Source: Paenibacillus humicola
GTDB lineage: Bacteria > Bacillota > Bacilli > Paenibacillales > Paenibacillaceae
Direction: 5' to 3'
NCBI RefSeq assembly: GCF_028826105.1
Contig: NZ_JAQGPL010000001.1
Location: 2,568,501 to 2,632,500 of the forward strand
Length of the DNA: 64,000 bases
The notes under the pieces were generated by a model, which was not told the origin of the DNA, made no database searches, and worked only from the letters and a program-made list of their open reading frames with translations. Position numbers and translations under genes: made by a program. Each line of letters begins with the position of its first letter. The first letter of the stretch is position 1. Below are positions 45,869 through 64,000 of the stretch, piece by piece.

Positions 45869-46342
45869 TTGCTTTCCCTTCAACAATTAAGAGAGATCGT
45901 GAAAATGGTCGAAGAATCGGGTATTCAAAAATTCGAGTACGAGACGTCCAGGGTGATCATTGCGAAAAACGACGGCACCGAAATTTCCGTTCCGGTGTCC
46001 GCTTCCGGGCCGCTGTATGAGCCGGACAAGCCGCGCGAATCCCATATGGCTTTTGCGCCGTCGCCGGCGGACGGCGTTGAAACCGCGGCTGCCGAGACAG
46101 CCGAAAAAACGATTACCGCTCCGATGCTGGGCACGTTCTACGCTGCGCCGGAGCCGGGGAAAGAGCCGTTTGTGCAGGCCGGCAAGCAAGTAACCGCCGA
46201 TACCGTCGTTTGCGTATTGGAAGCGATGAAGCTGTTTAACGAGATTAGGGCCGGCGTTGAAGGGGAAATTGTGAAGGTGCTGGTAGAAGACGGGGAATTC
46301 GTCGAATACGGTCGCCCGCTCTTCTTGGTCAAAACGGATTAA
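45869..46342 (+). CDS. accB: Biotin carboxyl carrier protein (AccB-like)
   Basis: A 157-residue BCCP. The N-terminal helix (LSLQQLREIVKMVEESG) resembles AccB. It is followed by a short Pro/Ala/Glu linker (55-80) and the biotinyl domain with the site EAMKL, Lys121. TTG 45869 is chosen because GGGAG (45856-45860) lies 8 nt upstream. ATG 45848 lacks such a site. No AccA/AccD carboxyltransferase is present. Its partners in this operon are more likely the PxpB/PxpC proteins, which resemble the carboxyltransferase part of urea carboxylase. It is the first gene of the operon. Confidence 0.88.
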   Translation: MLSLQQLREIVKMVEESGIQKFEYETSRVIIAKNDGTEISVPVSASGPLYEPDKPRESHMAFAPSPADGVETAAAETAEKTITAPMLGTFYAAPEPGKEPFVQAGKQVTADTVVCVLEAMKLFNEIRAGVEGEIVKVLVEDGEFVEYGRPLFLVKTD

Positions 46343-46374
46343 TCCGATTTAACAGTGGGAAGGGTGGCCGTGAC

Positions 46375-47796
46375 GTGTTCAAAAAAATACTGATCGCCAA
46401 TCGGGGCGAAATTGCCGTCAGAATCATACGCGCCTGCCGCGAAATGGGAATTGAGACTGTCGCGGTATACTCGGAGGCGGACCGTCAAGCGCTTCACGTG
46501 AAGATGGCGGACCAAGCGTTTTGCATCGGACCAGGTGCTACGAAGGACAGTTATTTGAACATCGCGAACATTATGCACGCGGCCGTATTCGCCCAGGCCG
46601 ACGCCATTCATCCCGGGTACGGATTTTTGGCGGAGAACCCCGATTTTGCGGAAATTTGCGATGCGTTCGATATCGAGTTCATCGGTCCGGACGCCGACGT
46701 CATCCGGCAGATGGGAATGAAAGCCGCGGCGCGGGAAGCGATGAAGCTGGCCGGCCTGCCGGTCATTCCCGGAACGGAAGGCGTCATTGAAGACGAGCGG
46801 CTTGCCGTCAAGGTTGCAGCCGAAATCGGCTATCCCGTCATCGTGAAGGCGGCTTCCGGCGGCGGCGGCAAAGGGATGCGGATCGCATACGGCGAAGATG
46901 GCCTGATCCCTTCCATCCGGCATGCGCGGAAGGAGGCGGAGAGCGCTTTTGGCAACGGGGATGTTTATCTGGAGAAGTACTTGGAAGCGCCGCGCCATAT
47001 CGAAATTCAAATTATGGCCGATAAACACGGCAACGTCGTTCATTTGGGCGAGAGGGACTGCTCGATCCAGCGGCGGCATCAGAAGCTTGTCGAGGAAGCG
47101 CCGTCTCCCGCAATCGACCCGGAGCTTCGGAAGCGGATGGGCGAAATGGCCGTGCGGGCCGCAAGGGAGATCGATTATCACGGCGCCGGCACGATCGAAT
47201 TTCTGCTTGACCGAAGCGGACGGTTTTATTTTATGGAGATGAACACCCGCATTCAGGTCGAGCATCCGGTGACCGAATGGGTGACGGGTTTCGATCTGGT
47301 CCGGGAGCAAATCGCCGTCGCCGCGGGGCAGCCCTTGTCCTTCCGCCAGGAGGATGTGAGGCTGCAGGGGTGTTCGATCGAATGCCGGATCAATGCGGAA
47401 GATCCGGACAACCTGTTTATGCCGTCCCCCGGGAAGGTTACGGCCTATTTGCCGCCAGGCGGCTTCGGCGTAAGGGTGGACAGCGCCGTCTATACGGGGT
47501 GCGTCATTTCGCCGTTTTACGATTCGATGGTAGCGAAGGTCATCGTGTGGGGGAAAGACCGGACGGAAGCGATCGGGCGAATGAAACGGGCGCTCGGCGA
47601 ATTTGTTGTCGAAGGCGTGGATACGACGATACCGTTTCATCGCAAGCTATTGGATAACGAAAGGTTTGCCAGCGGGGATTTTCAAACCGATTTTCTGGAA
47701 AGCGGCCTAATCAGCGGGGAGGATACAGCATGCGATACAACTTCGATGAGCCGTTTGGAACGTTTTGTTCAGACTCAATCAAGTGGAATTTCGTAA
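46375..47796 (+). CDS. accC: Biotin carboxylase (AccC-like)
   Basis: A 473-residue ATP-grasp biotin carboxylase. The N-domain is FKKILIANRGEIAVRIIRAC. The Gly-rich ATP loop (KAASGGGGKGMRI) is near 158-170. The ligase core ends in MNTRIQVEHPVTE, with the catalytic Arg. It carboxylates biotin on the carrier encoded just upstream. The true AccC domain ends near residue 445. The last ~22 residues are read through the start of the next gene, giving a 67-nt overlap. Start GTG 46375. It probably serves a specialised amide carboxylase rather than fatty acid synthesis. Confidence 0.9.
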   Translation: MFKKILIANRGEIAVRIIRACREMGIETVAVYSEADRQALHVKMADQAFCIGPGATKDSYLNIANIMHAAVFAQADAIHPGYGFLAENPDFAEICDAFDIEFIGPDADVIRQMGMKAAAREAMKLAGLPVIPGTEGVIEDERLAVKVAAEIGYPVIVKAASGGGGKGMRIAYGEDGLIPSIRHARKEAESAFGNGDVYLEKYLEAPRHIEIQIMADKHGNVVHLGERDCSIQRRHQKLVEEAPSPAIDPELRKRMGEMAVRAAREIDYHGAGTIEFLLDRSGRFYFMEMNTRIQVEHPVTEWVTGFDLVREQIAVAAGQPLSFRQEDVRLQGCSIECRINAEDPDNLFMPSPGKVTAYLPPGGFGVRVDSAVYTGCVISPFYDSMVAKVIVWGKDRTEAIGRMKRALGEFVVEGVDTTIPFHRKLLDNERFASGDFQTDFLESGLISGEDTACDTTSMSRLERFVQTQSSGIS

Positions 47797-62969: not shown

Positions 62970-63009
62970 GGTTATTGTCCCATCATCGATCCCAGGAGGT
63001 GAGCGGAAG

Positions 63010-64000
63010 ATGAAACAAATTCGGGAAACGCTGCGGCGTCTAATGGCCGAAAGAAAACGAGCCGTTCTGGCAACCATTATTCGCGTCGAAGGGTCGGCTT
63101 ACCGGCGAGAAGGCAGCCGATGCTTGTTCACGGAAAACGGCGAAATCGTCGGTATGCTGAGCGGCGGATGCGTGGAAGCGGATGTCCGGGAACACGCGGA
63201 AGACGTTTTCGCGACCGGGAGGCCCAAACGGATTGTCTACGATTTCCGCTCCGACTCGGACGATGTGTGGGGAATGGGCGCCGGCTGCAACGGCGCGATT
63301 ACGATCTGGCTTGAATTGTTCGATCCTGTGGGGGAAGCGGATGCGGCCGGGCGAATTGCCGCCGATTTCGAAGCGAGATTGTCGGCCGATGCGCCGTTTA
63401 TTTCGGCGATGGTTGTCGATTCGCAGGCTCCGTACCCGGCCGGATACCGGCTGACTGCGGACGAGCTGGCAGCGTCTCTTCCCCTGGCGGAAGTATCGAT
63501 CGGTTCGGCAGAACTGCGGAAGTTGACTTTCAAGGGCGTAACGCTGACCGCGTTCGTGGAACGGATCGCTCCCGCGCCGAGCCTTTACATTGTCGGGGCC
63601 GGTCCGGATGCGATGCTGCTTGGCCGCGCGGCTCACGCGCTGGATTGGAAAGTCACGTTTATCGATCACCGTACGGGCGAGGAACAACGTTCGCAGCTGC
63701 CGAACGGCTCGAGCTGGCTTCAAGTCCCGCGCGGCGACTTCTCCGGCGTGCCGGTGCACGACAGCGTGTACGTCGTGCTAATGACGCACAGCATCGGACT
63801 GGACATCGAAGCGGCGCGCCGGTTTCTGTTTTCGCCCGCAGCTTATCTCGGCATCTTGGGCTCGAGACGAAGAGCGCAGCAAATTGCGGAGGTGCTGCGT
63901 GAGGAAGCCGGCAGCATAGCTGCGGATCTCTCCGTTCTGAACAAGCTGCATGCTCCCGTCGGACTCGATATCGGAGCGCAGACGCCCGAAGAGATTACGC
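63010..64000 (+). CDS. XdhC/CoxI-family molybdenum cofactor insertion protein, 5' part
   Basis: The first 330 residues are present and the frame is open at the window edge. The N-terminal XdhC/CoxI domain has VRVEGSAYRREGSRCLF-like sequence (RVEGSAYRREGSRC) and MLSGGCVEADVREHA, with the Cys of GGCVE conserved. The Rossmann domain begins SLYIVGAGPDAMLLGRAA and includes LGILGSRRRAQQI. XdhC proteins bind and sulphurate the Mo cofactor before insertion into the large subunit. Start ATG 63010 follows AGGAGGTGA. The stop lies beyond 64000. Confidence 0.9.
   Translation, partial: MKQIRETLRRLMAERKRAVLATIIRVEGSAYRREGSRCLFTENGEIVGMLSGGCVEADVREHAEDVFATGRPKRIVYDFRSDSDDVWGMGAGCNGAITIWLELFDPVGEADAAGRIAADFEARLSADAPFISAMVVDSQAPYPAGYRLTADELAASLPLAEVSIGSAELRKLTFKGVTLTAFVERIAPAPSLYIVGAGPDAMLLGRAAHALDWKVTFIDHRTGEEQRSQLPNGSSWLQVPRGDFSGVPVHDSVYVVLMTHSIGLDIEAARRFLFSPAAYLGILGSRRRAQQIAEVLREEAGSIAADLSVLNKLHAPVGLDIGAQTPEEIT

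Follow-up and report, generated by a model that had tools for sequence, protein, structure and literature searches.

What does a bacterium gain by encoding, in one row of genes, a prenylated-flavin decarboxylase, a molybdenum hydroxylase, a probable ring reductase, the three subunits of 5-oxoprolinase and a biotin carboxylase with its carrier protein? The question is raised by a stretch of 64,000 nucleotides from Paenibacillus humicola (contig NZ_JAQGPL010000001.1, positions 2,568,501 to 2,632,500), which we call the window and which is part of a 5.9 Mb genome. A previous sequence-only reading of this DNA had listed a biotin carboxyl carrier protein (AccB), a biotin carboxylase (AccC) and the 5-oxoprolinase subunits PxpB, PxpC and PxpA in one operon, together with UbiD and UbiX, a fumarate-reductase-like (FRD-like) reductase, a xanthine-dehydrogenase-type (XDH-type) hydroxylase and a NitT/TauT-type importer. 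All of these genes were found as open frames on the + strand, from position 45848 to the end of the window, and family matches confirm the assignments; the XDH-type set is complete in the window (FAD, 2Fe-2S and molybdenum subunits plus XdhC). From AccB onward the intergenic gaps are at most 54 bp and several genes overlap, so that a single transcript is likely. The sequence-only reading had proposed that AccC, AccB and PxpBC form a split urea-carboxylase-like enzyme, which carboxylates an amide or lactam nitrogen before PxpA opens the ring. The reading that we favour, with modest confidence, is that the operon encodes a catabolic pathway in which an imported N-heteroaromatic polycarboxylate would be converted to a lactam, probably 5-oxoproline, and further to glutamate, with AccB, AccC and a PatB-type enzyme as accessories.

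The core of this gene set is conserved. A search for UbiD in a first sample of 98 related genomes, the own genome included, gave matches at 72-73% identity in four other genomes. A scan of named genomes yielded 32 UbiD loci, 20 of which belong to Paenibacillus or Cohnella (71-74% identity); the other 12 encode distant UbiDs (31-46%) with little of the gene set in the tblastn map and were left out. As far as their contigs reach, the 20 relatives share a module of ABC importer, UbiD, PxpABC, FRD-like reductase, small ferredoxin and a protein resembling 4,5-dihydroxyphthalate (DHP) decarboxylase. PxpB and PxpC were mapped by tblastn in all 20 clusters, in two gene orders, and PxpA in 19, the contig of the remaining cluster stopping short of the PxpA position. 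The FRD-like flavoprotein, the small 2Fe-2S protein and the DHP-decarboxylase-like protein are present in each of the 18 clusters that reach that far (L056 and L059 are cut). UbiX adjoins four of the 20 clusters, and 19 relatives, those whose contigs include it, have an IclR-type regulator transcribed divergently from the operon. Because the core recurs in 20 relatives, the gene set does not stem from chance, and the conserved ring-degradation operon is real. The joining of UbiD, molybdenum hydroxylase, reductase and PxpABC, which the sequence-only reading had linked to ring degradation, is consistent with a route to a lactam. That reading knew of no described pathway with the full gene set, and our open-access full-text searches likewise gave no description of the set or of a biotin-dependent lactam carboxylase.

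The recurring gene order does not extend to the genes at the head of the operon. AccB, AccC and PatB were found by tblastn in none of the 20 related clusters, 19 of which are informative (L059 has no DNA upstream of the importer), and a repeat search of these loci for AccB and AccC returned the window as sole match. Whole-genome searches of four cluster-bearing genomes, apparently four of the 20, gave one AccC match each with 65-66% identity (E <= 1e-120), which is presumably the housekeeping AccC. Relatives that lack accB and accC and degrade the same compound had been named as the case that would speak against a lactam carboxylase; the 20 relatives come close to it, since they lack AccBC and presumably share the substrate.

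A second line of evidence comes from the oxygenation step. Genes for the FAD, FeS and molybdenum subunits of the XDH-type enzyme occur in ten of the 18 decidable clusters (L057, L058, L060-L064, L066, L072, L078) and are missing from the other eight (L055, L065, L067-L071, L073). Exactly these eight carry a luciferase-type flavin monooxygenase gene 3' of the DHP-decarboxylase-like gene, 82-91% identical to two queries taken from L055 and L073 (L071 matches in two pieces), and none of the ten XDH-bearing clusters has it within the contig stretch examined. Cluster L055 retains XdhC and a MocA-like gene despite the loss of XDH, as if the enzyme had been replaced on the spot, and two XDH-less genomes (G016 and G006) contain elsewhere only XDH relatives at 30%. 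We read the XDH-type enzyme and the flavin monooxygenase as two unrelated oxygenases serving one ring-oxygenation step. The best model for the monooxygenase is SfnG (211.8 against a cut-off of 383), RutA-type models being also close and also below cut-off, and its PDB match is 8t0u. A sulfonate or dimethylsulfone pathway, to which the SsuA-like importer and the SfnG-like monooxygenase might belong, was set aside, since it would offer no role to UbiD, PxpABC or the DHP decarboxylase; the ring substrate that we assign to the monooxygenase is nevertheless putative.

More distant relatives show how the core may vary at its ends. The DHP-decarboxylase-like protein was searched in 398 genomes of the class at E <= 1e-70, and ten genomes passed: that of the window, three from the same family and six that belong to a different one (f113). 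The six f113 loci combine genes for DHP decarboxylase, FRD-like and 2Fe-2S proteins with a transporter of the major facilitator superfamily (MFS), and have neither UbiD nor the ABC importer nor AccBC within the stretches examined, to which all statements on these loci refer. The XDH genes are complete in five of them; L249 has a partial molybdenum subunit and no FAD or FeS gene. PxpA is present in four of the six, in one case with PxpBC. Loci L251 and L252, which come from one genus and are 98% identical in the compared genes, have no Pxp gene and encode a creatininase-family amidohydrolase (PF02633) upstream of the XDH-DHP decarboxylase-FRD cluster (L251 12937-13749, L252 10098-10910), a possible alternative lactam opener. 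UbiD, and perhaps also the ring-opening enzyme, thus form exchangeable ends around a common core.

What chemistry would the conserved enzymes perform? Residues R159, E262 and E267 of UbiD, which we take to be the catalytic Arg-Glu-Glu, are invariant across five clusters. The His of an REHL motif, common to UbiD and HmfF, lies near H297, the His linked to furan specificity in HmfF, with the numbering off by one, and is possibly widespread in UbiDs. In the FRD-like flavoprotein, an Arg, a His and an Arg align with R287, H355 and R390 of E. coli FrdA, three of its four substrate residues, and a Phe stands at the fourth, H232; the pattern would suit an enoate with one carboxylate. The best solved relative of UbiD in a PDB search is 6h6v (E=6e-83), identified as PtHmfF in the accessible text of PMC8988006, and HmfF decarboxylates furan-2,5-dicarboxylate according to the accessible text of PMC7976604. 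The DHP-decarboxylase homologue matches 9jp7 over its full length (residues 4-317, E=4e-53), and its context argues for a substrate other than dihydroxyphthalate. This gene, located between those of the XDH FAD and FeS subunits, was absent from the gene list of the sequence-only reading.

All three 5-oxoprolinase subunits are encoded, with lactam opening as their predicted function. Near-invariant columns are kept almost throughout: 47 of 48 in PxpA (defined on 53 unlinked PxpAs), 31 of 32 in PxpB and 41 of 41 in PxpC. The PxpC meets TIGR00724 and scores below the cut-off of the NCBIfam PxpC equivalog NF045499 (268.9 versus 500 bits). The IclR regulator is 70% identical to the one heading a pxp-accBC operon (L116). 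Because the PxpA and PxpC columns are kept and the regulator resembles that of a pxp operon, 5-oxoproline is on balance favoured as the lactam intermediate. In a midpoint-rooted PxpBC tree (L059 was left out of the Pxp alignments and trees), the window PxpBC group with those of the UbiD clusters (20 rows, 0.98); their sister consists of five AccBC-linked and two unlinked rows (0.80), the joint group having 0.90.

We propose that UbiD would take off one ring carboxylate, after which the XDH-type molybdenum enzyme would oxygenate the freed carbon adjoining the ring nitrogen. The DHP-decarboxylase-like enzyme would remove a second carboxylate, and the FRD-like flavoprotein with the small ferredoxin would reduce the remaining C=C bond to give a saturated lactam carboxylate, most likely 5-oxoproline. 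ATP-dependent opening by PxpABC would then yield an amino acid, in all likelihood glutamate. If the reductase needs one carboxylate to be left and both decarboxylases act before it, the starting acid should carry three carboxylates, and only two in clusters that lack UbiD. Pyrrole-2,3,5-tricarboxylate would use each conserved enzyme once (C5 decarboxylation, C5 hydroxylation, C3 decarboxylation, reduction, opening). This acid and pyrrole-2,3-dicarboxylate, both known from eumelanin oxidation according to the accessible text of PMC13135606, would fit the anatomy of the operon as starting acids. AccBC would not be needed for such a pathway, and AccB, AccC and PatB would be accessories.

Several observations weigh against this proposal. 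The pyrrole acids were picked for their fit and not on any direct sign of them, and a review of melanin degradation names, in its accessible part, no catabolic pathway for pyrrole acids. UbiD is far from HudA, the pyrrole-2-carboxylate decarboxylase (4ip2, E=9e-36 versus 6e-83 for HmfF), and the known substrate of dihydroxyphthalate decarboxylase is a carbocycle. The molybdenum subunit has its best match, in the PDB and in NCBIfam, in the dehydroxylating 4-hydroxybenzoyl-CoA reductase, below the model cut-off, and hydroxylation is therefore deduced from context. A possibly shifted substrate of the 5-oxoprolinase is suggested by two changes that the window shares: T replaces S192 in the PxpB of all clusters compared (19 of 19), and PxpA departs at G211 in 15 of 18 clusters. 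Three of the six f113 loci have PxpA without PxpBC, and the window genome contains a second, lone PxpA (L256, G000:C1:1426315-1426995; 44%) with no other query gene adjoining.

How, then, did AccB and AccC come to this locus? Family scans and similarity search found no AccA-like or PCC-type carboxyltransferase in the operon, in line with the absence of AccA noted in the sequence-only reading. Elsewhere in the genome lie an AccC beside an Asp23 gene, in housekeeping arrangement (C1:3577196), an AccA (C1:4148235; AccD was not searched for in the genome) and a fused urea carboxylase (C1:1100335). The window AccB and AccC exceed the cut-offs of the acetyl-CoA-carboxylase equivalogs (137.7 versus 115.2 bits and 746.5 versus 626.5, respectively). 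In the order-level sample, the two highest-identity matches of the window AccC are second copies at 73% (G081) and 70% (G093), both in the order PxpB-PxpC-AccB-AccC; identity alone does not decide the origin, because PCC-linked copies and housekeeping copies of other families in the class-level sample are equally close (71-73%). Apart from the window, the PxpB-PxpC-AccB-AccC unit occurs in five genomes (L116, L117, L139, L220, L227), which represent four families, and Staphylococcus aureus has AccBC beside PxpABC in a six-gene operon, as given in the accessible text of PMC11315280. Matches to AccC in L134 and L135 (20-24%) were taken as other ATP-grasp proteins and not counted as pxp linkage.

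A first AccC tree, from which nine of 45 loci were dropped for want of a usable open reading frame (the own-genome housekeeping AccC among them), joins the window to pxp-linked copies at 92/69 and 84/70. In a second tree, with four rows left out (three long branches and one duplicate), the window joins L116 (94/72), L220 (94/79) and L227 (90/85) and stays apart from the housekeeping copies of its order. A group at 90/85 takes in four of the five pxp-group rows, the window included, and a single further row separates it from L117. L234 falls inside the pxp group, which is therefore no clean clade, and no fork is starred; constraining the group to a clade is not rejected (p-AU 0.19). Forcing the window AccC together with all 18 housekeeping rows gave a p-AU of 0.031, those rows themselves not forming one clade. 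As a second copy in its genome, the window AccBC shows a tendency to group with copies adjoining PxpBC, and to this extent the link drawn by the sequence-only reading stands; its membership in the pathway is not supported, given the relatives without these genes. Since AccBC and PxpBC of the operon seem to differ in recent history, AccBC was most likely captured, with a pxp-accBC operon as the probable source; the idea that it belonged to the cluster ancestrally was rejected.

A separate observation concerns 11 extra AccB-AccC loci, ten of which adjoin a PCC-type carboxyltransferase and a methylmalonyl-CoA-mutase-like gene. The biotin lysine of the AccB-like protein is lost in seven of them (L222, L224, L225, L226, L229, L230, L231), where EAMK has given way to motifs such as DALQ, ASLN and EPLQ; in L219 and L221 the lysine is retained without the motif, and in L232 and L234 the motif is intact. 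A carrier protein without biotin lysine beside an intact-looking AccC is odd.

The split carboxylase of the sequence-only reading, in which AccC and AccB provide carboxybiotin and PxpBC acts as carboxyltransferase, so that the lactam nitrogen is carboxylated before PxpA opens the ring, has much of its machinery at hand. Biotin carboxylase, a biotinylatable carrier and both carboxyltransferase halves are encoded together, AccB-AccC stands beside PxpBC in the five other genomes and in S. aureus, most of the pxp-linked AccC rows cluster in the tree, and the AccB biotin site is kept in all five linked operons and the window. PxpBC are also the only carboxyltransferase-domain partners nearby: 12 of the 13 other extra AccBC copies in the class adjoin a PCC-type carboxyltransferase (PF01039 in the two loci scanned; 77-100% identical to that of L219, itself included, the thirteenth 29%), and none was found at the five pxp-linked loci or the window within the stretches examined. 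The residues point the other way. The general base of the carboxyltransferase in KlUA is Lys1605 according to the accessible text of PMC5770610. The own-genome urea carboxylase, aligned with 3va7, has Lys at this position, which confirms the mapping, whereas the window PxpB has Arg180. Arg is found there in all 82 PxpBs compared (the window, five AccBC-linked, 19 from UbiD clusters and 57 unlinked, two of 59 unlinked loci having given no usable PxpB and L059 not being included), so at this position the AccBC-linked PxpBs look no more urea-carboxylase-like than the others. In a draw of 199 genomes from the whole phylum, 60 pxp loci were selected, and AccBC adjoins pxp in one of them (a selection that leaves out short or split matches and one second copy, with several loci cut by contig ends), and in none of the 20 cluster relatives. 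PxpA, PxpB and PxpC of B. subtilis alone reportedly reconstitute activity (Niehaus, 2017). The pxpTABC genes of C. glutamicum support growth on 5-oxoproline, and neither 'carboxylase' nor 'accB' appears in the accessible main text of that study (PMC13274462). We thus rejected a urea-carboxylase-like enzyme as principal explanation, for its Arg in place of Lys and the relatives without AccBC, and consider it improbable. A bolder variant is just as doubtful: PxpB-PxpC-AccB-AccC would be a recurrent, co-inherited unit, in which AccBC is the biotin partner of PxpBC and no part of fatty acid synthesis, that is, a biotin-coupled 5-oxoprolinase (N- or O-carboxylation of the lactam driving its opening) that has here been attached to a new pathway for pyrrole polycarboxylates. 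On this view the Arg would point to another acceptor chemistry and not to a lost function.

A simpler account takes AccBC as a spare half of acetyl-CoA carboxylase that pairs with distant AccA/AccD and has no tie to lactam chemistry. Their equivalog scores, the AccA elsewhere in the genome and the closeness of the window AccC to PCC-linked and some housekeeping copies agree with it, and AccB keeps the loop of housekeeping AccB. A random spare would, however, hardly fall within a nearly single group of pxp-linked AccC drawn from several families (starred support being absent), and the genome already has AccBC in housekeeping arrangement; we regard this account as unlikely, if worth keeping in mind. 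Doubts may also be raised about the ring. Were the starting acid a pyridine polycarboxylate, with quinolinate and dipicolinate as examples, its hydroxylation by the nitrogen, decarboxylation and reduction would lead to a six-membered lactam, opened by a PxpABC of widened specificity. Sporulating Bacilli make dipicolinate plentiful in their surroundings, the PDB matches of the molybdenum subunit include nicotinate dehydrogenase and quinoline 2-oxidoreductase, 6-hydroxyquinolinate would chemically resemble 4,5-dihydroxyphthalate, and PxpA and PxpB of the clusters share a few departures from ordinary ones. Such a route would need two C=C reductions, for which the operon has a single reductase. 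PxpA agrees with ordinary PxpA in nearly all conserved columns, and UbiD matches the five-ring enzyme HmfF best; we retain a pyridine substrate as an unlikely rival. Finally, PxpABC could be the ordinary 5-oxoproline scavenger of the cell beside an unrelated ring-degradation operon, since its PxpC is the only one found in the genome besides the urea carboxylase. PxpBC lies inside the operon in 20 of 20 relatives with two gene orders and the cluster PxpBC form one group in the tree; this last explanation is very improbable. The catabolic pathway through a lactam, probably 5-oxoproline, remains our preferred reading, and its genes are collected below.

Genes of the operon and its regulator in the window, with positions counted from the first nucleotide of the window
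Feature	Position	Strand	Basis and remarks
IclR-family regulator	44778..45557	+	NCBIfam; homologous to IclR of a pxp operon
AccB, biotin carboxyl carrier protein, EAMK biotin site	45848..46342	+	TIGR00531 over cut-off; probable accessory
AccC, biotin carboxylase, second copy of the genome	46375..47796	+	TIGR00514 over cut-off, trees; probable accessory
PatB/MalY-type pyridoxal-phosphate-dependent C-S lyase or aminotransferase	47730..48917	+	TIGR04350 over cut-off; probable accessory
NitT/TauT-type ABC importer ATPase	48964..49737	+	Family match; kept in relatives
ABC importer permease	49748..50605	+	Family match; kept in relatives
ABC importer substrate-binding lipoprotein, SsuA-like	50660..51697	+	Family match; kept in relatives
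UbiD-family decarboxylase (prenylated flavin mononucleotide, prFMN)	51715..53148	+	TIGR00148 over cut-off; PDB 6h6v
UbiX flavin prenyltransferase (prFMN supply)	53179..53739	+	TIGR00421 over cut-off
PxpB, 5-oxoprolinase subunit, CT_C_D domain	53729..54499	+	TIGR00370 over cut-off; Pfam
PxpC, 5-oxoprolinase subunit, CT_A_B domain	54493..55503	+	TIGR00724 over cut-off; Pfam PF02626
PxpA, LamB/YcsF lactam hydrolase	55520..56284	+	NCBIfam/Pfam PF03746
FRD-like flavoprotein, probable ring C=C reductase	56295..58001	+	Family matches, residue alignment
Small SdhB-like [2Fe-2S] protein, likely to exchange electrons with the FRD-like flavoprotein	58021..58335	+	Pfam Fer2_3
XDH-family FAD subunit	58348..59241	+	NCBIfam/Pfam
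DHP-decarboxylase homologue	59263..60222	+	PDB 9jp7; source names
XDH-family [2Fe-2S] subunit	60253..60735	+	NCBIfam/Pfam
XDH-family molybdenum subunit, only one found in the genome	60738..62969	+	NCBIfam/Pfam, PDB
XdhC-family factor for molybdenum-cofactor insertion, truncated at the end of the window	63010..64000	+	NCBIfam/Pfam

Just upstream of the IclR regulator lies an MFS efflux-like gene (43023-44237) with a GC content of 0.43, in the lowest-GC bin of the window (0.465); this gene may be foreign. Downstream of the window operon (L053), open reading frames that by eye look like those of a nucleotidyltransferase, a peptidase and an ABC exporter may form a cluster of the lasso-peptide type.

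If the proposal is true, the operon would represent a route, so far undescribed, by which N-heteroaromatic polycarboxylates are turned into an ordinary amino acid, 5-oxoprolinase would gain a catabolic role beyond the repair of cyclised glutamine, and the pyrrole acids of melanin oxidation would have a possible bacterial fate. The exchange of XDH for flavin monooxygenase at one fixed spot offers a handle on which step is the ring oxygenation.

Among known systems, the PxpABC operons (pxp/kip of B. subtilis, pxpTABC of C. glutamicum) are similar in PxpA, PxpB and PxpC, and the class pxp operons also in the IclR regulator. The UbiD clusters carry a ring-degradation pathway and an ABC importer instead, with no NRAMP/YcsG-type transporter and no DUF1445 found in them. 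The S. aureus operon (pxpB, pxpC, pxpA, accB, accC; PMC11315280) likewise has AccBC adjoining PxpABC, but its accessible description names no UbiD, XDH, FRD or DHP decarboxylase, and its authors assign accBC to fatty acid synthesis; against this one published annotation, the PxpBC-AccBC unit makes a sharp case for examining a biotin-dependent 5-oxoprolinase. Compared with urea carboxylase and urea amidolyase (KlUA), the window has biotin carboxylase, carrier protein, CT_A_B and CT_C_D as separate proteins, whereas its PxpB has exchanged the general base and its genome encodes a separate true urea carboxylase. The homologue of 4,5-dihydroxyphthalate decarboxylase (9jp7) differs from it in lying among XDH and FRD genes, with a putative substrate. 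The degradation of furan-2,5-dicarboxylate offers a further parallel: a UbiD acts on a heteroaromatic dicarboxylate with a five-membered ring and removes a carboxylate, and hydroxylation by an XDH-type enzyme comes next, HmfF being followed by the molybdenum furoyl-CoA hydroxylase HmfABC. In the window operon, by contrast, no CoA ligase was seen, and PxpABC, a ring reductase and a DHP-decarboxylase-like enzyme are present in addition, which points to a ring nitrogen and a lactam intermediate.

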